Of a DNA stretch of 30,742 nt, positions 4,147 through 20,173 are shown piece after piece. Position 1 is the stretch's first letter. Each line of letters begins with the position of its first letter. The DNA lies in the IMG/VR virus record IMGVR_UViG_3300048107_000004, positions 1 through 30,742 of that record; one strand, 5' to 3'. The position numbers and the translations under genes are program-made. The stretch is from a virus. The notes below the pieces were generated by a model. The model made no database searches and was not told where the DNA came from. It saw only the letters and a program-made list of their open reading frames with translations.

Positions 4147-4515
4147 ATGTACGCTACCGACAAAGTAGACGACAAGCAACTACTGGCAAAATTGCCCGAA
4201 CCGAAAGGTTATAAGCTGCTTATCGCAATACCAGAACTTGAAGGCAAGACAGATGGCGGTGTTTATATGCCCGATTCTTTAACCAAAATGGAAGAAACCG
4301 CGACCATTATTGGATATGTCATCAGTATAGGTGAAGAAGCCTATACAGATAAAGAGCGGTTCCCGAATGGACCTTGGTGCGAAAAAGGTGATTTTATCAT
4401 CTTCCGTTCGTATTCAGGTACACGTTTTAAATTACATAACAAAGAGTTCCGTATTATCAACGACGATACTGTTGAAGCGGTAGTCGAAGACCCACGGGGG
4501 TACAGTAGAGCATGA
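4147..4515 (+). CDS. groES: GroES-like co-chaperonin (viral Cpn10)
   Basis: A 122-residue protein resembling the GroES/Cpn10 fold. It would cap the host GroEL ring and assist folding of phage proteins, as T4 gp31 does for its capsid protein. PKGYKLLIAIPE near residues 19-30 matches the first strand. GKTDGGVYMPDS at about 34-45 corresponds to the GroES mobile loop that contacts GroEL. GYVISIGEEAY, KGDFIIFRSYSGTRFK and a C-terminal FRIINDDTVEAVVED complete the beta-barrel pattern (turnover glycine, basic pocket, final strand). The C-terminus extends about 10 residues past the usual end. No GroEL gene is in the window. The ribosome-binding site is GCAGGAGA at 4134-4141. It sits between portal and scaffold, and its stop overlaps the scaffold ATG. 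Confidence 0.87.
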   Translation: MYATDKVDDKQLLAKLPEPKGYKLLIAIPELEGKTDGGVYMPDSLTKMEETATIIGYVISIGEEAYTDKERFPNGPWCEKGDFIIFRSYSGTRFKLHNKEFRIINDDTVEAVVEDPRGYSRA

Positions 4516-6575: not shown

Positions 6576-7481
6576 ATGGCTATTTCACGCGCACAGGCGC
6601 TTAAAGAGCTCTTACCCGGACTTAATGCCTTATTTGGGCTTGAGTACGGCAAATACGAAAACGAACACGCGGACATCTATGAGACAGAAAATTCAGAGCG
6701 TAGCTTTGAAGAAGAAGTTAAATTGTCTGGTTTCGGTGCAGCACCAACAAAGGCTGAAGGTTCATCTATTGCGTACGATAATGCGCAAGAGGCGTTCACA
6801 GCTCGCTACACACACGAAACTATCGCTATGGGTTTCGCCATCACTGAAGAAGCGATGGAAGATAACTTGTACGATTCTTTGTCCTCACGTTACACAAAAG
6901 CTTTAGCTCGCGCTATGGCATACACTAAGCAGGTTAAAGCCGCCTCATTGCTCAACACGGGCTTTGACACTTTCCAGTCTGGTGATGGTGTAACATTGTT
7001 CAACACTGCACACCCAACAGTTGGTGGCGGTACAAACTCTAACCGTCCAGCGGTTAGTGCTGACCTTAACGAGACTTCGCTTGAACAAGCGATTATCGAC
7101 ATTGGTGGATACACAGACGAACGTGGCTTACTTATCGCAGCTCGCGCTAGAAAGCTAATCATCCCGTCTGCGTTACAGTTCGTAGCAACTCGTTTGTTGG
7201 AAACAACTTTACGTGTAGGTACAGCGGATAACGATATCAATGCAATCAGCTCTAACGGTGCAGTTGCTGAAGGATATGGCGTAAACCATTATCTTACAGA
7301 CGCTGACGCTTGGTTCCTGACTACAGACATCCCTAATGGTATGAAGCACTTCGTACGTTCTGCGATGGCTACAGGAATGGATGGAGACTTCGACACTGGC
7401 AACGTGCGCTACAAAGCGCGTGAGCGTTACAGCTTCGGTGTTTCTGACCCATTAGGTATCTACGGATCACAAGGCGCGTAA
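6576..7481 (+). CDS. Major capsid protein, HK97 fold
   Basis: A 301-residue protein forming the icosahedral shell. It resembles capsid proteins of the Mu gpT-like HK97-fold group. The N-terminus (ISRAQALKELLPGLNALFG) starts directly with a short helix and has no delta-domain of the HK97 type, consistent with a separate scaffold upstream. Further marks are AMGFAITEEAMEDNLYDSL near residue 85-105, LFNTAHPTVGGG near 140, TDERGLLIAARARKLIIPSALQFVATRLLE in the A-domain region, and a C-terminal RYKARERYSFGVSDPLGIYGS. AGGAGG just before the ATG is the best ribosome-binding site in the window. A strong terminator follows, as expected for the most expressed gene. Confidence 0.92.
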   Translation: MAISRAQALKELLPGLNALFGLEYGKYENEHADIYETENSERSFEEEVKLSGFGAAPTKAEGSSIAYDNAQEAFTARYTHETIAMGFAITEEAMEDNLYDSLSSRYTKALARAMAYTKQVKAASLLNTGFDTFQSGDGVTLFNTAHPTVGGGTNSNRPAVSADLNETSLEQAIIDIGGYTDERGLLIAARARKLIIPSALQFVATRLLETTLRVGTADNDINAISSNGAVAEGYGVNHYLTDADAWFLTTDIPNGMKHFVRSAMATGMDGDFDTGNVRYKARERYSFGVSDPLGIYGSQGA

Positions 7482-12020: not shown

Positions 12021-14192
12021 ATGGCCTTAATCGTCGCTGATCGCGTACAAGAAACCACTAACTCTACGGGGACTGGGGCTTATACTCTGGGAGGCGCGGT
12101 TCCGGGCTTTCAAACATTTTCTTCCGAGGTATCTAACGCTGACACTGTCTATTACTCGGTAACGGATAATGCGGATTTCGAGGTTGGCCTTGGAACTTAT
12201 GCGTCTAGTGGGGGGACTATTACCCGCACGACGGTATTTACATCGTCTAACTCCAACAACGCTGTTAACTGGGGTATAGGAACAAAGAATATATTCCTGA
12301 CCTACCCAGCAGATAAGGCTGTAGTTGAGGATGCGAGTAATAATGTAGCCATTGGTAACAACTTAGTTGTGGGCGGCACAGTTGACGGGCGTGATGTAGC
12401 CGCTGACGGAACTAAGTTAGACTTTGTTACGGTTACACAAGCGGTCGATCTTGACCAAATGGAAACTGATATTGCCGCACTTGAAAACGGTATGGTCTAT
12501 AAAGGTGATTGGAACGCAGGTTCAGGTAGTTTCCCCGGTGGTGGCTCTGCTCAAACAGGCTGGTTCTATTACGTTTCAGGGGCGGGTACGGTTAATGGTA
12601 TATCGTTTGTAGTGGGGGACAACATCGTTGCTACTACAGACAATGCGTCTACTTCTACTTATGCAAATAATTGGTCAAAACACGATCAGACAGACGCCGT
12701 ACAAGCTGTTGTGGGTTTAACTGGGTCTGTATCAAAAAGCGGACTGTTATCTGCACTAAACGTAGAAGATGGCGCGAACGTAACAGATGCGGCTAACGTA
12801 AACCCGCTAGTGGATTCACATGTAAATGTCAGTAGTGCGGGCAGTGGGCAGTATCTTGGTTGGAACGGTAGTGATTACGCTTGGTCAACTGTAGATTTAT
12901 CCACTAAGTTGAACTTGTCTGGTGGTACTATGTCGGGTGATATAGATGGCAACGGCAACAAGATGCTATTCGCTAACATGTATTCAAACCTAGTTAACTT
13001 GCCAAGTGCTACTACTTATCACGGTATGTTTGCTCACGTCCATGCAACAGGAAAAGCCTACTTCGCACACTCTGGTGCATGGGTTCCGTTAGCTAATGAA
13101 TCAACCACCTTGGCACTATCTGGTGGTGCAATGACAGGTCCGATTACTACCAACAGCACCTTCGATGGTCGAGATGTAGCTACAGACGGCACAAAACTTG
13201 ATGGCATAGAGTCCGGTGCAGATCAGACAGACACCGCCAACGTTACTGCCGCAGGAGCCTTGATGGATTCTGAAGTAGATGGTGATATTAAGACTTTGTC
13301 GTTACCGGCTAATACAACTATCAGTGCATTTGGTAAAACGCTAGTTGACGATGCCGACGCTGCTACAGCTAGATCAACATTAGGTTTAGGCACAGCCGCT
13401 ACCACTGCAAGCTCCGCATATGCTACAGCGGGACAAGGAACTAAGGCTGACGCTGCTTTACCTAAAGCTGGCGGGGCTATGACAGGTGCTATCACAACTA
13501 ACTCAACCTTTGACGGACGTGACGTAGCTGCAGACGGCTCTAAGTTAGATGGTATTGAGACCGGAGCTACAGCGGATCAGACAATCACTGCAGGTTCTGG
13601 GTTATCAGGCGGCGGCACTGGCAATGTAACACTAAGCCACTCTGACACTTCCTCACAAAGCAGTGTTAACAACTCCGGTGCTACAGTCATCCAAGACGTT
13701 ACGCTTGATACATATGGGCATGTTACAGGGCTTGGCTCTCACACCCTGACTTTAGCTAACTTAGGCTATACTGGTGCAACAAACGCTAACTATATTACAA
13801 ACAATAACCAGCTTACTAACGGTTCTGGGTACACAACGTACACCTCTAATCAGGCTACGAACACAAATAGCACGGTAACGTTTACTACGGTTAACGCGGG
13901 TACAATTAATACCACTTCAGACGAACGTGCTAAAGACGACATAACGCCGATCACTGATGCTTTGGATAAGGTTCAACAGCTGGGTGGGTATTCATTTACT
14001 CTTAAAGCAACTGACGAGAAGTCTTCAGGTGTTATAGCTCAAGAGGTACAAAAAGTTATGCCAGAGCTAGTTCAAGAAGGTGCTGAAGGGCTCCTATCTG
14101 TACAGTACGGCAACATGGTTGGTTTGTTAATCGAAGCAATCAAAGAACAACAGGCTCAGATTGACGAGCTAAAACAAAAACTTAACGGCTAA
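12021..14192 (+). CDS. Tail fibre with C-terminal S74 self-cleaving chaperone
   Basis: A 723-residue fibre for host recognition. Residues 1-105 form a virion-proximal domain (ALIVADRVQETTNSTGTGAY). The shaft contains the phrase TFDGRDVAxDGxKLDGIExGA twice, as part of longer repeats near residues 368-403 and 484-520, plus a related VDGRDVAADGTKLDF near 122. The last ~91 residues are a peptidase S74 intramolecular chaperone: SDERAKDDI contains the Ser633/Lys638 dyad, followed by GVIAQEVQKVMPELV and a C-terminal coiled coil (IEAIKEQQAQIDELKQKL). In this family the chaperone trimerises the shaft and then cuts itself off just before the Ser. It is well preserved here, so the fibre is likely functional. 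Confidence 0.9.
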   Translation: MALIVADRVQETTNSTGTGAYTLGGAVPGFQTFSSEVSNADTVYYSVTDNADFEVGLGTYASSGGTITRTTVFTSSNSNNAVNWGIGTKNIFLTYPADKAVVEDASNNVAIGNNLVVGGTVDGRDVAADGTKLDFVTVTQAVDLDQMETDIAALENGMVYKGDWNAGSGSFPGGGSAQTGWFYYVSGAGTVNGISFVVGDNIVATTDNASTSTYANNWSKHDQTDAVQAVVGLTGSVSKSGLLSALNVEDGANVTDAANVNPLVDSHVNVSSAGSGQYLGWNGSDYAWSTVDLSTKLNLSGGTMSGDIDGNGNKMLFANMYSNLVNLPSATTYHGMFAHVHATGKAYFAHSGAWVPLANESTTLALSGGAMTGPITTNSTFDGRDVATDGTKLDGIESGADQTDTANVTAAGALMDSEVDGDIKTLSLPANTTISAFGKTLVDDADAATARSTLGLGTAATTASSAYATAGQGTKADAALPKAGGAMTGAITTNSTFDGRDVAADGSKLDGIETGATADQTITAGSGLSGGGTGNVTLSHSDTSSQSSVNNSGATVIQDVTLDTYGHVTGLGSHTLTLANLGYTGATNANYITNNNQLTNGSGYTTYTSNQATNTNSTVTFTTVNAGTINTTSDERAKDDITPITDALDKVQQLGGYSFTLKATDEKSSGVIAQEVQKVMPELVQEGAEGLLSVQYGNMVGLLIEAIKEQQAQIDELKQKLNG
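13122..13580 (+). repeat. Duplicated shaft module in the S74 fibre gene
   Basis: Two related segments (about 13122-13230 and 13470-13580) encode the phrase GGAMTGxITTNSTFDGRDVA and its continuation to GADQT/TADQT. Synonymous differences are frequent, so the duplication is old. A partial third copy lies at about 12375-12425. Confidence 0.7.
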
Positions 14193-14210: not shown

Positions 14211-15416
14211 ATGGCTATAAAAGTAAATAATACTACTGTTATTAACGATAGTAGGGCTTTACAGAATATTTCGTCTGTTGATTCAGCTACAGTGACAGCT
14301 TTGAACAACGCCGGTGTTGGAGGTTCTTCTTATGCTAATAAAACCGCTAACTATACTGCTTCGGCGGGGGATTTATTGACAGCTAACACCACTGGCGGAG
14401 CTTTTACCATAACACTGCCTTCAAATCCTTCGGCGGGCGATTCAGTAGGTATAATAGATGTTAATAGGTCTTGGGTGACCAACAGTTTAACTGTAGCTGC
14501 TAGTGGCAAAACGATTACAGACGAGAGAGGAATTACAGCGTCTAATAGTACAGCTTTCAACCAATCTAAAGCGCTTGAATTTATATATAGAGCAGACGGA
14601 GCATGGTACTTTAAACAAACTGTCTCGGGCGAGTTCCCCTCACTGTTGTTTATACCTAGTGATTGGACTTCACCAGATGTAACACTAACAGGATCGGGGA
14701 CATGGAACGCCCCAGCTAGTTGGAGAGAAGAAGACATTATAGTTATGTATCTTACATGCGGGGGTTCCAAAGCGGCGGCCTTTATATACTCAGGACAAAG
14801 TTGGCAGCCGGGAGGGACTGGTGGTTCAGCCAGATTCTTTATCGGTAATGTTTCAGATTTTGACGGAGCTGCTTATGTTTGTGGTAGTGGAGCCACTTCG
14901 ACCAGCTGGAATAGGCAACCTTTACAGAACGATCAAGAAACGAAGATAACGGACAATTTAGGCGTTAATACATACAGCGCATTAGTTACAGGGTCTGAAA
15001 GCGTCGGTACATACACTAATATAGGACAGATCGTCTCTACGACAAACTTTACTGCGACCAGCGCTTCAGCGGTACAGGACTCTTATATGTCATATACACA
15101 GTCTACAGTTAACCCTATAAACACGGGTACAGTAAGTTTAAGTGTAACGTTCGGTAATAGAGACCACGACAGCTCTGGCCAAAACCCCGGGGTAGTAGGA
15201 CCTAGTATATTTAGTGGCGGGAATGGTAGAAGTACTGGATTTGGTGAAACATCTGCAGCGGGATCGGTAAGTCTTTATTCTGGAAACGGGGGCGCCAGTT
15301 TTGGCGCAAATGGAACTTATCCGGGCGGCGCCGGAGGCGGCCCAACCAGCTACTCTGGAACCACTGGGGGTACTAGCGCCGCAGGTAATATTCGAATTTA
15401 TAGACAGCCGCAGTAA
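14211..15416 (+). CDS. Second tail fibre/adhesin, glycine-rich tip
   Basis: A 401-residue fibre-like protein. The N-terminus (AIKVNNTTVINDSRALQNIS) is a common phage-fibre attachment phrase. Residues ~45-150 resemble a beta-structured domain that ends fibres (AGDLLTANTTGGAFTITLPS, then FIYRADGAWYFKQTVSG). The C-terminal ~90 residues are rich in Gly, Ser and Asn (SGGNGRSTGFGETSAAG and repeated GGxG segments), recalling the polyglycine-loop specificity domains of T4-like gp38 adhesins. Such tips determine receptor binding and vary rapidly. A receptor-binding role is inferred. It is followed directly by a tail-assembly-chaperone-like gene. Confidence 0.78.
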   Translation: MAIKVNNTTVINDSRALQNISSVDSATVTALNNAGVGGSSYANKTANYTASAGDLLTANTTGGAFTITLPSNPSAGDSVGIIDVNRSWVTNSLTVAASGKTITDERGITASNSTAFNQSKALEFIYRADGAWYFKQTVSGEFPSLLFIPSDWTSPDVTLTGSGTWNAPASWREEDIIVMYLTCGGSKAAAFIYSGQSWQPGGTGGSARFFIGNVSDFDGAAYVCGSGATSTSWNRQPLQNDQETKITDNLGVNTYSALVTGSESVGTYTNIGQIVSTTNFTATSASAVQDSYMSYTQSTVNPINTGTVSLSVTFGNRDHDSSGQNPGVVGPSIFSGGNGRSTGFGETSAAGSVSLYSGNGGASFGANGTYPGGAGGGPTSYSGTTGGTSAAGNIRIYRQPQ

Positions 15417-15430
15417 TAGGGAGATAGAAA

Positions 15431-15703
15431 ATGAGCGACTTTGACAATGTTTGGAACCTCACTGAAACAGAGATTAACAATCTTACCGCACAGTTTCGTG
15501 TTAATAGAAATAATATGCTGAAAAAAACAGATGCGATTATCATGCCTGATAGAAACCCTGATGAGCGATGGAATCAGTTCCGTCAAAAACTAAGGGATAT
15601 ACCCCAAAACCAACTTAATTTCCTTAATGGCCTAGATGATGATTATTTCACAGAGTGGGAGTGGGAAAAATGGATGCTCCTTGGCGCGGGGATGATGGAT
15701 TGA
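15431..15703 (+). CDS. Phage tail assembly chaperone-like protein (APC family)
   Basis: A 90-residue protein. RVNRNNMLKKTDAIIMPDR and then ERWNQFRQKLRDIPQNQ match the pattern of the phage tail assembly chaperone family often found after fibre genes (Phage_tail_APC type: R...L..TD...D.....W..[YF]RQ.LRDIP). The C-terminus is acidic and Trp-rich (DDYFTEWEWEKWMLLG). In related phages such proteins assist folding or attachment of fibres; the exact job is poorly known. GGGAG at 15419-15423 is the ribosome-binding site. Its stop codon TGA overlaps the TTG start that I assign to the halogenase, so the two are likely translated together. Confidence 0.75.
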   Translation: MSDFDNVWNLTETEINNLTAQFRVNRNNMLKKTDAIIMPDRNPDERWNQFRQKLRDIPQNQLNFLNGLDDDYFTEWEWEKWMLLGAGMMD

Positions 15704-16860
15704 AGGTTGCTATAATAGGTAAAGGTACAGCGGGATGTATGACAGCCGCGCACTGCAAAAGATGGATAAATGCGGACGAAATAGAGTGGTACTTTGACCC
15801 TTCTATAAAACCGCAGGCTGTAGGCGAAGGGTCAACTTTAAATCTACCTAATAGGCTTAACGATTCTTTAAACTTTTCGCCAAGACATTTTGATTCTGTA
15901 GGCGCGACTGTAAAGACAGGTATCTATAAAGAAGGTTGGGGGAGTAAACGAAAGCCTTTTATCCATGACTTCCCGAGCCCTTCAACGGCTTTGCATTTTG
16001 ATGCAACTCTATTGCAGGGTTTTGTCTATGATAAGTTAAAAGATTCAGTGTCTATAAAAGAAGCTAACGTATCTTCAGATGACATAGATGCAGACTATAT
16101 TATTGACTGTTCTGGCAGACCTTCCTCTTTTGAAGACTTTGAGATGTCAAAGTATATTCCTGTAAACGCCGTACATGTAACACAGTGTTCTTGGGAATAT
16201 CCACGGTTTAGTGAGACATTAGCTATCGCAAGACCTTATGGTTGGGTGTTTGGTATACCCCTTAAAAACCGCTGCTCTGTAGGGTATATGTACAATAAAG
16301 ATATAAATACTTTAGAAGAAGTTAAAGCGGATGTAGAGGTTATATTAAACGAATATAACTTAGTGCCTAATGGGGATACTAACTCATTTAGCTTTTCTAA
16401 CTATAGGCGTAAGAGTAATTTTAAAGACAATATTGTGTATAACGGCAATGCTTCTTTCTTTTTAGAACCTCTTGAAGCTACTTCGTTCGCTACTGTAGAC
16501 AATGTTAATACTATGGCGGTTCAAAGATGGTTTGGGAATACTTCTTTAGAGCTATCGAACCTTAGATATCACGCTAATTTAGACGCCTGCGAAAACATTA
16601 TAATGTTGCACTACGCATCGGGGTCTTCTTTCAAAAGTGACTTTTGGTCCTACGCTAAAGAAAGAGGTATAAAATGTATGGAAAATGCAGACCCTAGCTT
16701 GGATTACATGATTAAAAACTCGAAAGAGCCTAGTAGTACAGGTTCGTATTCTGACGTATTTAAACTGCCCCCTGTTATGACCGAACATTTTGAAGCGTTG
16801 TATAAAAACTGGTGGGAGGGTTCGTTCTCTCAAAACACTAAAGGACTTGGATTAACATAA
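15700..16860 (+). CDS. Flavin-dependent halogenase (tryptophan halogenase-like)
   Basis: Expected to use reduced FAD, oxygen and a halide to make hypohalous acid that halogenates an electron-rich substrate. I choose TTG 15700, overlapping the upstream stop, because the N-terminus then starts KVAIIGKGTAG, the usual first strand and GxGxxG FAD loop (Gly7, 9, 12). In-frame GTG 15655 and ATG 15670 would add residues inside the previous gene. AVGEGSTLNLPN (40-51) fits the next FAD segment. Lys72 (GATVKTGIYKEGW) aligns with the catalytic Lys of PrnA/RebH, and Glu259 in LEPLEATS with their catalytic Glu. Deviations: the WxWxIP signature reads WVFGIP (182-187), and PLESTG reads PLEATS, changing a halide-site glycine. 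At 386 residues it is shorter than the 500-540 of bacterial tryptophan halogenases. Substrate unknown. Confidence 0.9.
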   Translation: MKVAIIGKGTAGCMTAAHCKRWINADEIEWYFDPSIKPQAVGEGSTLNLPNRLNDSLNFSPRHFDSVGATVKTGIYKEGWGSKRKPFIHDFPSPSTALHFDATLLQGFVYDKLKDSVSIKEANVSSDDIDADYIIDCSGRPSSFEDFEMSKYIPVNAVHVTQCSWEYPRFSETLAIARPYGWVFGIPLKNRCSVGYMYNKDINTLEEVKADVEVILNEYNLVPNGDTNSFSFSNYRRKSNFKDNIVYNGNASFFLEPLEATSFATVDNVNTMAVQRWFGNTSLELSNLRYHANLDACENIIMLHYASGSSFKSDFWSYAKERGIKCMENADPSLDYMIKNSKEPSSTGSYSDVFKLPPVMTEHFEALYKNWWEGSFSQNTKGLGLT

Positions 16861-16861
16861 C

Positions 16862-17497
16862 ATGTTAGGATTTTCCCCATATTCAGCTGCAGCCTTTTCC
16901 GATGTAGGTAGTGGGGAACAGCTATTTGTTGCTACAGGCGTTGTTAGTACTGGGGCTGTTGGTACGGTATCAGTTACGGGGAATCAGAGCGGGTTAACTC
17001 TTGGCTCAGTGCAAGGTTCTGCAACAATCGGTGGCGTGGCAGTAGACGCTGGCGGAACACCTGTAATCACATCTCCAAACGCTATGGTAAGTGGTCTAGG
17101 CACAGTTATAGCTTCTACAGACTTAGAGCTTACACTTACAGGCGTTGCGGCTACTGGGTCGCTGGGCACTGTTACTATAATAAACGCCTCGGTTATTAGC
17201 CCTACGGGACTTGCGGGTACTACGAATACCCCTAGTGTTTCTACTATCTCTAACGCTACATTCTCCGTAACCGGTGTAGCTGGAACTATGTCTGTGGGCA
17301 GCGCACAAGGCCAAGCAGGTGCAGGTGCGGATGTTACTGGAGTTTTAGCTACAGGTAGTGTAGGCTCTGTAACAACGACGGCCGCAGCATTGGTAACTAC
17401 TACTGGAGTATCAGCTACAGGAACCGTTGGACAAGCACTTGTATGGGGTAGGATTAAACCTGATCCCGGTACAATATGGACAAGAATAGCAGCGTAA
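16862..17497 (+). CDS. Repeat-rich tail/fibre structural protein
   Basis: A 211-residue protein built of degenerate repeats of the type TGVxATGSxGTV (for example TGVVSTGAVGTVSV, TGVAATGSLGTVTI, TGVLATGSVGSVTT, TGVSATGTVGQALV). Almost all residues are Gly, Thr, Val, Ala or Ser. Such repeats suggest an extended beta-helical or fibrous domain. The N-terminus (LGFSPYSAAAFSD) and C-terminus (RIKPDPGTIWTRIAA) differ from the repeats and may be attachment and capping parts. The position between halogenase and another fibre-type gene suggests a virion surface or tail part. Low complexity prevents a family call. Confidence 0.65.
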   Translation: MLGFSPYSAAAFSDVGSGEQLFVATGVVSTGAVGTVSVTGNQSGLTLGSVQGSATIGGVAVDAGGTPVITSPNAMVSGLGTVIASTDLELTLTGVAATGSLGTVTIINASVISPTGLAGTTNTPSVSTISNATFSVTGVAGTMSVGSAQGQAGAGADVTGVLATGSVGSVTTTAAALVTTTGVSATGTVGQALVWGRIKPDPGTIWTRIAA

Positions 17498-17506
17498 GGA
17501 TGAACA

Positions 17507-18295
17507 ATGCCTAGTACATACACAGACAACGGTGGCATTGAGCTTCCAGCCAGCGGAGAACAGTCCGCTACATGGGGCAACACCGTAAACGATAACATGA
17601 GCATTATAGACCGCTTAACAAACGGTGTCGGTGCTATTACTTTATCTGGTACAACACATACTCTAGCGATTAGTGACGGCGCTCTCTCGGATGGACAGTA
17701 TAAAACCCTCGTGCTTGGAGGGTCTCCTTCAGGTACCAATACGGTGACTGTATCCCCAAATAACGGACAACATATATACATTGTTAAGAACAATAGCGGC
17801 CAAACAGCTGTATTTACTCAAGGTTCTGGGGCAAATGTCAATGTATTAACAGGTACAACTAAGGTTATATACTGTGATGGGGCAGGTGCAGGTGCAGCTG
17901 TTGTAGATGTTACGGGCTCTTTGGACCTTGGCGCACTGATAGTAGGAGGCGTAACTGTCACTTCTACGGCGGCAGAACTCAATATACTAGACGGGGTCAC
18001 TGCAACTGCCGCAGAGTTAAACATAATGGATGGTGTTACAGCTACAGCAGCTGAAATTAACTACGTTGACGGGGTCACATCCAACGTACAAACACAACTT
18101 AACACTAAAGCACCCTCTTCAAACCCTACCCTTGGTGGTACTATCACAATAACAGGTGGCACACAAAGCTGGACAGTAACAGCGGCGGGAACAAATTTAA
18201 CCTTTGCTTATAACGGCACAAATGTTCTTCGTGTAGATAGCTCCGGCAACTTAATAGCATCGGGTGATATAACTACTAATGGAACTATTTCATAA
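17507..18295 (+). CDS. Tail fibre-like protein with AAELN repeats
   Basis: A 262-residue fibre-type protein. The N-terminal PSTYTDNGGIELPASGEQSA, followed by TWGNTVNDNMSIIDRL, is a common phage tail protein start. A strand-rich middle includes GQHIYIVKNNSGQTAVFTQG. Three tandem 13-residue units (TATAAELNILDGV and variants) at 17960-18076 continue into TSNVQTQLNTKAPSSNPTLG, a widespread shaft phrase of phage fibres. The C-terminus (GTNVLRVDSSGNLIASGDIT) looks like an end-cap strand. No chaperone or enzymatic domain is visible. It is probably a side fibre or a fibre linker. Confidence 0.78.
   Translation: MPSTYTDNGGIELPASGEQSATWGNTVNDNMSIIDRLTNGVGAITLSGTTHTLAISDGALSDGQYKTLVLGGSPSGTNTVTVSPNNGQHIYIVKNNSGQTAVFTQGSGANVNVLTGTTKVIYCDGAGAGAAVVDVTGSLDLGALIVGGVTVTSTAAELNILDGVTATAAELNIMDGVTATAAEINYVDGVTSNVQTQLNTKAPSSNPTLGGTITITGGTQSWTVTAAGTNLTFAYNGTNVLRVDSSGNLIASGDITTNGTIS
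17960..18076 (+). repeat. Three tandem 39-base repeats (TATAAELNIxDGV)
   Basis: Units at 17960-17998, 17999-18037 and 18038-18076 each encode 13 residues of the form T-A-T-A-A-E-[LI]-N-x-x-D-G-V. The DNA copies differ at many synonymous positions, so the protein repeat is old and maintained by selection. Confidence 0.85.
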
Positions 18296-18316: not shown

Positions 18317-20173
18317 ATGCCACTACAAAAACTCCAGTTTCGCCCCGGGATTGTAAGGGATACAACTGATTACACTAACGAAGGCGGTTGGCGTGACGGG
18401 GATAAAATCCGTTTTCGTTTGGGTTTCCCCGAAACTATAGGTGGTTGGACTCAGTACACAAACTCAGTTATGCTTGGTATTTGCCGCGACCTGCATGCGT
18501 GGACTTCTTTGGCGGGTACAAGGTTTGTTTCAGCGGGTACTAATTTAAAACTATATGTTTTAGACGGCAATAGCCCTGTAGACATTACGCCTATCAGACA
18601 AACTACTTCTGCAGGGGATGTTACCTTTGCGGCTACAAATGGCTCTTCTACAATTACTGTTTCAGATGCAAGCAACGCCGTTTTTTTAAATGATTTCGTT
18701 ACGTTTTCCGGGGCTGCCAGCCTTGGGGGAGCTATAACCGCCGCAGTACTAAACAAAGAGTATCAGGTAACTTCTATTATAAATGCTAATTCCTACACTA
18801 TTACCGTTTCAGCTACGGCTAATTCTTCAGATACAGGGAATGGTGGGAGTTCCGTAGTAGGTGTTTACCAAATAAACACAGGATTAGAATCTCCCGCTAC
18901 TGGTAGTGGATGGGGTGCGGGCGTTTGGGGGCGTAGTACATGGAACTCTCCAGCCGACGTAACAATTCCGGGTGCGCAACTTCGTTTATGGTCTATGGAC
19001 AACTTCGGAGAAGATTTATTAGCAAATGTACGGGGCGGGGGTATTTATTATTGGGATACTTCTACAGGTACTTCTTCCCGTGCTGTAGATATAACTACTT
19101 TAAGTGGTAGCAATCAACCTCAAGTTGCTAATATTGTTCTTGTTTCTGAAAGAGATAGACACGTCATTGCATTTGGTTGTGACCCACAAGGTGATCCCGG
19201 AAACCTTGACCCTTTAACTATACGTTTTTCTGACCAAGAGAGTTTTACTGATTGGGCGGCAACGTCAACTAACACTGCTGGAGAGCTACGCATTGGTACC
19301 GGGTCTGAAATTATAGCTGCAGTACAAACAAAGCAACAAGTTATAATTTTTACAGATCGTTCCGTGTCTTCGATGCAATTTATTGGTGCTCCGTTTACTT
19401 TTGGCCTTACTGAAGTCTCCACAAACACGTCTATCGCAGGGCAAAACGCTGCTGTTGCTTTTGGAGATGCAGTGTATTGGATGGGCGATCAAGTATTTTA
19501 CAAGTATGACGGTAACGTACAACCTATACCATGCCCTATAGAAGAATATGTATTTGAAAACATGAACATTCCACAACGTTCTAAAGTCACTGCTGCAGCC
19601 AATAGTAAGTTTAATGAGATATGGTGGTTTTATCCTTCAGCTACTAGCCAAACAAACGATAGCTACGTTGTATTTAACTATGTAGAAAACAGTTGGTATT
19701 ACGGGACTCTACCCCGCACTGCGTGGTTCGATAATGCTGTTTCTAATTTACCTATCGCTGCTTCACCCGATGGGTACTTATATTTCCAAGAAAACGGTGT
19801 AGACGACGGAAGTACCAACCCACCTAGCCCGATAAGTAGCTACATAGAATCTAGTTCTATAGATATGGGTGACGGAGATCAATTTATGTTTATGTCAAGG
19901 GTTTTACCAGACCTGACATTCCGAAACTCCACGTCTACTCCACAGGCTACGTTTGAAGTAAGTGCGAGGGACTTCCCCGGAGCCAGCTTCGATCAGACAA
20001 ATTCTGGTAGCGCAGTACGTACATCAATAGCACCCGTCGAACAGTTTACGGAGCAGTTGTTCTTCCGGTTACGGGGCCGATCTATGGCCTTGAAAGTTTC
20101 CTCGAATACTCTTGGAACGCAGTGGAGACTTGGCACACCACGCGCAGATATGCGTACAGATGGGAGGCGGTAA
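18317..20173 (+). CDS. Tail nozzle/stabilisation-type protein (P22 gp10-like)
   Basis: A 618-residue protein, predicted mainly beta. The N-terminus (LQKLQFRPGIVRDTTDY, then GGWRDGDKIRFRLGFPETIGGW) is typical of podophage tail hub or stabilisation proteins that close the tail under the adaptors. Propeller-like features include repeated short strands (VFLVSERDRHVIAFGCDPQG-type segment near 270) and Trp/Tyr-containing phrases (DQVFYKYDGNVQPIPCPIEEYV, interrupted by turns). The middle insert of residues ~95-190 is Ser/Thr-rich. C-terminal FFRLRGRSMALKVSSNTLGT resembles the final strand set of this group. Size and position after the fibres fit a nozzle. The exact family name is inferred rather than proven. 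Confidence 0.75.
   Translation: MPLQKLQFRPGIVRDTTDYTNEGGWRDGDKIRFRLGFPETIGGWTQYTNSVMLGICRDLHAWTSLAGTRFVSAGTNLKLYVLDGNSPVDITPIRQTTSAGDVTFAATNGSSTITVSDASNAVFLNDFVTFSGAASLGGAITAAVLNKEYQVTSIINANSYTITVSATANSSDTGNGGSSVVGVYQINTGLESPATGSGWGAGVWGRSTWNSPADVTIPGAQLRLWSMDNFGEDLLANVRGGGIYYWDTSTGTSSRAVDITTLSGSNQPQVANIVLVSERDRHVIAFGCDPQGDPGNLDPLTIRFSDQESFTDWAATSTNTAGELRIGTGSEIIAAVQTKQQVIIFTDRSVSSMQFIGAPFTFGLTEVSTNTSIAGQNAAVAFGDAVYWMGDQVFYKYDGNVQPIPCPIEEYVFENMNIPQRSKVTAAANSKFNEIWWFYPSATSQTNDSYVVFNYVENSWYYGTLPRTAWFDNAVSNLPIAASPDGYLYFQENGVDDGSTNPPSPISSYIESSSIDMGDGDQFMFMSRVLPDLTFRNSTSTPQATFEVSARDFPGASFDQTNSGSAVRTSIAPVEQFTEQLFFRLRGRSMALKVSSNTLGTQWRLGTPRADMRTDGRR

Follow-up and report, generated by a model that had tools for sequence, protein, structure and literature searches.

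A short flavin-dependent halogenase homologue encoded with a glycine-rich fibre tip and an assembly chaperone in phages

What viral halogenases are for has been an open question since prnA-like genes were reported in cyanophages, and the published ideas are speculative. Here we ask it of a halogenase-like gene lying among fibre genes in a marine virus of the IMG/VR collection (record IMGVR_UViG_3300048107_000004). The window analysed is the whole of that record, 30,742 bases. A sequence-only reading had described the gene as a reduced and divergent halogenase linked to fibre genes, which could act on tyrosine or tryptophan in a fibre, on a host surface compound or on a host metabolite.

The halogenase and its active site

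The longest reading frame, 15655-16860, opens with GTG; an ATG at 15670 would give a protein of 396 amino acids and a TTG at 15700 one of 386. The TTG shares bases with the preceding gene's stop codon (TTGA) and agrees with the start position in relatives, and it is the start used below. Residue equivalences are alignment-based, and conservation was counted in an alignment of 95 short homologues.

15700-16860, plus strand: short flavin-dependent halogenase (FDH), 386 amino acids from TTG (PF04820, AlphaFold2 model, Foldseek)
15913-15915, plus strand: codon of catalytic Lys72, aligned to Lys79 of PrnA and RebH; Lys in 94 of 95 relatives
15964-15972, plus strand: codons of His89-Asp90-Phe91, counterpart of the substrate-stacking H-x-F of FDHs, aligned with the H-x-F of 9luq, 6frl and 5lv9
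16474-16476, plus strand: codon of Glu259 (PrnA Glu346); Glu in 90 of 95 relatives
16810-16812, plus strand: codon of Trp371, aligned by profile with RebH Trp466 and PrnA Trp455; 86 of 95 relatives

The protein matches PF04820 with 120 bits (E = 1.6e-34) against a curated cut-off of 21 bits, and PHROG 2928, ‘tryptophan halogenase’, with E = 1e-68. Its sequence matches in the PDB are FDHs only (9luq, BrvH 6frl, Th-Hal 5lv9, VirX1 6qgm, RebH and PrnA), and a profile of the family finds RebH at 6e-39 and VirX1 at 1e-31. Homology to FDHs, as proposed from the letters alone, is thus far above chance. An AlphaFold model built from a 60-sequence alignment has a mean pLDDT of 93.2 and a pTM of 0.90, its least certain stretch being residues 251-260, adjoining Glu259. 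The best PDB fold matches found by Foldseek are BrvH (E 1e-21) and PrnA (TMq 0.76), within a TMq range of 0.69-0.76, and the VirX1 crystal structure is matched as well. Top matches by fold and by sequence were all FDHs, with no non-halogenating monooxygenase among the best. Profile score and fold together place the protein in the FDH superfamily (PF04820). The gene is under strong purifying selection, with dN/dS of about 0.09-0.15 in pairs whose dS is not saturated. We considered and rejected assignment to the VirX1 type of viral halogenase: the window protein has 386 residues against about 530, and other FDHs score higher, VirX1 ranking fourth among its PDB matches by phmmer and 24th by profile.

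The motifs had been read correctly from the sequence. The FAD loop GKGTAG (GxGxxG) begins at residue 7, with Gly7, Gly9 and Gly12 nearly invariant, WVFGIP lies at residue 182 and PLEATS at 257, and the catalytic pair Lys72 and Glu259 is conserved in relatives, Glu259 being replaced by Gln in 3 of 95. The stacking triad is likewise retained (His89 in 85, Phe91 in 87 and Trp371 in 86 of the 95), and Trp371 is invariant within the clade of fibre-linked halogenases described below. In PrnA the indole is sandwiched by the H-x-F and Trp residues. The label ‘divergent’ holds in that the motif changes are present, but they are not oddities of one protein: the Phe of W-x-F occurs in 93 of 95 relatives, and Ser or Thr replaces the halide-loop Gly in 92 of 95, giving A-T-S in the window protein where canonical variant A enzymes have S-T-G. 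Divergence here therefore means membership of a distinct short phage family. ‘Reduced’ is likewise right in that the protein is shorter than PrnA, RebH and VirX1, yet it is not peculiar, being one of hundreds in a viral family.

Since the strict WxWxIP signature of canonical variant A is replaced by WVFGIP, we class the protein as a short variant of the FDH superfamily and not as a canonical Trp halogenase. It also departs from such enzymes at the Glu that binds a free amino acid: in a RebH profile alignment, Ala366, variable among relatives, occupies the position of PrnA Glu450 (first-sphere substrate residues of PrnA are listed in PMC9764358). About 65 residues are missing relative to RebH chain positions 110-185, plus a smaller hairpin. 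Judged by its sequence, the window gene appears to encode a shortened, apparently intact FDH homologue.

A cassette of fibre tip, chaperone and halogenase

The halogenase gene follows two fibre genes and a chaperone gene, and further structural genes lie downstream.

12021-14192, plus strand: tail fibre with a C-terminal S74 intramolecular chaperone, 723 amino acids (PF13884, E = 1.2e-16; PHROG tail fibre, E to 1e-37)
14211-15416, plus strand: second fibre protein, 401 amino acids (tip homologous across clade loci; AlphaFold2 model)
14619-15413, plus strand: Gly-rich tip domain, the C-terminal 265 residues of the second fibre protein
14802-14804, plus strand: codon of Trp198 (SWQPGG) in the tip protein, invariant in 16 of 16 tips
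14907-14909, plus strand: codon of Trp233 (TSWNRQ) in the tip protein, invariant in 16 of 16 tips
15431-15703, plus strand: Phage_tail_APC assembly chaperone (APC), 90 amino acids (PF16778, E = 2.3e-9; PHROG tail fibre assembly)
16862-17497, plus strand: repetitive protein, 211 amino acids, probably structural; right flank of the cassette
17507-18295, plus strand: fibre-like protein, 262 amino acids (PHROG 31104)
18317-20173, plus strand: virion structural protein, 618 amino acids (PHROG 3287, E = 2.9e-70)

The APC scores 37.4 bits against a PF16778 cut-off of 26.6, adjoins the fibre gene and overlaps the halogenase start with its stop. The repetitive protein matched no Pfam or PHROG family; antisense to its gene lies a 269-residue open frame (16984-17793, minus strand) that is probably a by-product of its composition. 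In its portal-like protein the window phage is similar to Pelagibacter phage HTVC023P and Roseobacter phage CRP-901, and all three carry a GroES-like co-chaperonin (Cpn10, PF00166), which in the window lies in the head module at 4147-4515. The annotated CRP-901 region lists no halogenase.

The link to fibre genes proved much stronger than the sequence-only reading had claimed: it holds across 25 loci, and the genes move as one block. In each of these loci, which are the 25 closest and include the window, a fibre with a Gly-rich tip is followed by Phage_tail_APC (PF16778) and then by the halogenase, and in most of them the upstream stop and the halogenase start overlap by 1-8 nt. This linkage of the halogenase with a fibre tip and APC is new here. 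In a quick maximum-likelihood tree, all halogenases with fibre and APC upstream form one clade of 15 (SH-aLRT 95); L027, the one member whose neighbour is not seen, begins at the edge of its contig. The cassette sits on several unrelated backbones, which vary in phage type and in the genes that follow: neck and gp15 genes of T4-like type come after it in L022, L018 has a gp15-like gene and L019 a PHROG 38 terminase. A sister group (L041, L042, L047 and L053) keeps an APC-like gene and the halogenase with an unrelated tip; one of these, L041, shares the 618-residue structural gene with the window at 85% identity and carries this other cassette type. The collection scans behind these counts covered close relatives and incomplete contigs.

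Wherever it can be read in inner-clade loci, the C-terminal part of the fibre directly 5′ of APC is a Gly-rich domain that is homologous between loci and evolves fast, while the rest of the protein differs; a collagen-like region precedes the domain in L010, L018 and L024. The tip domain itself matched no Pfam family and no PDB sequence. Its AlphaFold2 model has a pLDDT of 70.7 and is read with caution for that reason; it bears a weak likeness to the Cyanophage Pam3 fibre and the Bxb1 tail tip, and it also resembles many phage ‘glycine-rich domain’ and collagen-like fibre proteins. These resemblances are consistent with a receptor-binding tip.

A tip profile matched 7 of 7 clade records, none of 42 other short-halogenase records and none of 35 records with APC and no halogenase. 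Every contig returned by tip-based scans was already among the halogenase contigs, so that the tip was seen only beside a fibre-clade halogenase; because whole-clade tip alignments were too variable for scanning the collection, these scans used subgroup alignments, which reach close relatives only and draw in part on the Trp motif, and the result is biased toward the known set. Two tips compared with cultured phages by tblastn with low-complexity masking on gave no match, and a local search for remote Trp-free homologues gave nothing significant outside the clade and no halogenase-free contrast case. In an alignment of 16 tips, which represent only some ten independent lineages, the gap-free columns with no variation comprise nine Gly, one Ser and two Trp (Trp198 and Trp233). 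Each tip has 7-16 Tyr, several at positions shared by 12-14 of the 16, none invariant. Many folded domains retain Trp because their structure requires it.

Exchange of the cassette is seen in L006 and L020, which come from nearly the same phage. On the left, 3.8 kb match at 98.4% identity, and on the right identity reaches 100%. Between these flanks the match breaks down within the fibre gene (L006 position ~3,840) and remains poor across tip, APC and halogenase, the halogenase proteins being 62.5% identical; identity is back at 97% between L006 positions 6974 and 7074, the halogenase stop being at 7046. Chaperone and halogenase thus changed along with the tip, in a single differing block. The pairing of enzyme and tip is not absolute, however, as L020 and L026 differ strongly in the tip and also in APC while most of the halogenase is 85-98% identical in DNA. 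Protein distances of halogenase and tip are correlated (Mantel r 0.84, reached in none of 2000 permutations), as expected for co-inheritance, and correlated trees can arise from close physical linkage alone.

We do not claim a general slot for modifying enzymes after fibre and APC: one locus (L134) gave a weak glycosyltransferase match, and CRP-901 gave none that was firm. In CRP-901, gp49 (L164:7573-8124, minus strand), after a fibre gene, encodes 183 residues with an N-terminus that looks sulfotransferase-like by eye and no significant Pfam match.

Short halogenases are numerous in viruses, at least 561 relatives being confirmed in one viral scan, on hundreds of contigs. No fibre-clade halogenase was found in bacterial or archaeal species genomes, where a search for the wider family gave nothing beyond one distant long FDH, in Actinomadura; the lack of a fibre-clade relative in bacterial genomes led us to set aside a prophage or host origin. 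Short halogenases that diverge further are found away from fibre genes, beside 2OG-Fe(II) oxygenases or carbamoyltransferases. Outside the fibre clade, two oxygenase families occur near them at 13 and 12 of 78 dereplicated loci, and PF13640 and PF13759 recur in this position (L085:5372-5950, L083:7794-8423 and about 25 similar loci), a neighbourhood that suggests a shared modification pathway there. A Nol-like carbamoyltransferase lies immediately 5′ of the halogenase in L044 (4331-5995) and L050, an arrangement similar to the cluster of jumbo cyanophage S-SSM6a (PMC7824862). Halogenases also occur in tandem or near-tandem arrays, with three copies in L077 and L084 and two in L057, L063, L067, L070, L089 and L102; these arrays lie on metagenomic virus contigs, and some pair short copies with a long one of about 490 residues.

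A candidate substrate in the fibre tip

What, then, might the enzyme act on? Among the substrates proposed earlier, a fibre is favoured by genomic context and Trp over Tyr by the invariant residues, so far as sequences can tell. The catalytic residues are intact, the pocket lacks the clamp for a free amino acid, a segment is missing near the substrate side, and the gene keeps constant company with a chaperone and a tip in which two Trp are invariant amid hypervariable sequence. Taken together these features point to halogenation of the fibre tip, and we put the chance that the enzyme modifies a Trp in its own fibre tip during assembly at about even. Since the gene is inherited and swapped with the tip and its assembly helper, its product probably chlorinates, brominates or iodinates the fibre itself. 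The fuller proposal is more tentative, and we hold it at somewhat less than an even chance: a phage-only halogenase would modify the conserved tip Trps of its own fibre, and enzyme, chaperone and tip would be exchanged between unrelated marine phages as a host-recognition cassette.

What we infer, namely an activity, a protein-level substrate, a target residue, a halide and a benefit, could fit together as follows. Reduced FAD would be supplied by a host flavin reductase, which we assume because the flavin reductase family PF01613 was absent from the 11 clade contigs searched. With O2 and a halide it would give hypohalous acid, which Lys72 would guide, with assistance from Glu259, to an aromatic ring sandwiched by His89, Phe91 and Trp371. 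That ring would preferably belong to a Trp (less probably a Tyr) of the neighbouring fibre's Gly-rich, receptor-binding tip, offered to the enzyme while the tip folds or is assembled together with Phage_tail_APC; its modification may tune receptor binding or stability. FDHs that halogenate peptide-bound Trp are known (MibH, SrpI and ChlH), and ChlH modifies a single internal Trp within a large protein (PMC12615548, PMC12518702).

The main alternative is an auxiliary metabolic enzyme that halogenates free indole, phenol or a host cell-surface compound, the fibre linkage then reflecting late expression or shared host specificity. Cyanophage enzymes lend it substance: VirX1 halogenates many small aromatics (PMC8407142), protection from antibiotics was proposed, speculatively, for cyanophage halogenases (PMC2984593), and the jumbo-phage cluster of halogenase, 2OG oxygenases and carbamoyltransferases has been read as decorating metabolites or capsule (PMC7824862). 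Distant relatives of the window gene do sit in such oxygenase and carbamoyltransferase contexts, and antibiotic protection or secondary metabolites may fit those better. The fibre clade, by contrast, has no biosynthetic neighbour genes, the gene accompanies tip and chaperone from backbone to backbone and in the block swap, and the equivalent of the Glu that holds the amine of free Trp is lost; we consider a small-molecule substrate rather unlikely for this clade.

Other readings keep the fibre and change the chemistry or the target. The protein might be a non-halogenating flavoenzyme that oxidises fibre residues, for example by hydroxylation, or serves as a scaffold. Replacement of WxWxIP and of the loop Gly throughout the family would suit this, as would the Gln that three relatives carry in place of Glu259, a substitution that reportedly leaves FDHs inactive (PMC8407142). 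Against it, a Ser backbone amide can stand in for that of Gly, and Lys72 is almost absolutely retained, along with Glu259 and the stacking triad; in Thal the equivalent Lys is reported to be essential for halogenation and dispensable for formation of the flavin hydroperoxide (PMC7948982). We regard loss of halogenation as distinctly improbable. That a fibre-directed halogenase targets a tip Tyr or another virion protein instead of the two invariant Trps seems very unlikely, even though FDHs act on phenols too (PMC8407142) and the tips hold many Tyr, several of them widely shared: no Tyr is invariant whereas two Trps are, and the indole-stacking triad is retained.

A literature search found no paper linking a halogenase to fibre modification. 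If halogenation of the tip is borne out, it would to our knowledge be the first halogenated phage structural protein, and covalent modification that tunes receptor binding would be a new axis of phage-host adaptation. The cassette offers a concrete and testable substrate, the protein encoded two genes away, and a compact 386-residue FDH with a natural protein substrate would be of use for protein labelling.

Comparison with known systems

Short FDHs are already known, cyanophage copies being annotated ‘tryptophan halogenase’. Cultured members are mostly cyanomyoviruses (T4-GC 212), S-RIM4 being 45% identical to the window protein. These enzymes (PHROG 2928; T4-GC 212 of S-SSM7, S-ShM2 and S-SSM5; S-RIM4) share its 360-390 residue length, motifs and full-length homology. 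They differ in that no APC is recognised directly 5′ and in the varying position of the gene, by transaldolase and fibres, head genes or gp33. Some have Gln for Glu259, as in L032 (S-SSM7) and L037 (P-TIM40), where the protein is otherwise conserved.

VirX1 of cyanophage Syn10 (PDB 6qgm) is also a viral FDH with the same fold, Lys and Glu, but it has 531 residues, the canonical GWVWNIP and about 19% identity in a fold alignment; the preference for iodide is known only for VirX1. The variant A enzymes PrnA, RebH and BrvH resemble the phage protein in fold (Foldseek E to 1e-21), catalytic Lys and Glu, H-x-F and Trp stacking residues. They are about 110-150 residues longer, and the phage protein lacks a stretch between the Lys79 equivalent and the second half, lacks the amino-acid-binding Glu and has WxF for WxW.

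The RiPP halogenases MibH, SrpI and ChlH are alike in the proposed chemistry on peptide-bound Trp and in being encoded beside their peptide (PMC12615548, PMC12518702), the likeness drawn here being one of chemistry and gene arrangement. They act on short precursor peptides, where a virion fibre is proposed here, and they have no chaperone partner. Host-recognition modules of Alteromonas phages, for which the accessible part of the source reports no halogenase, likewise swap a fibre and its cognate chaperone between unrelated phages (PMC10579305).
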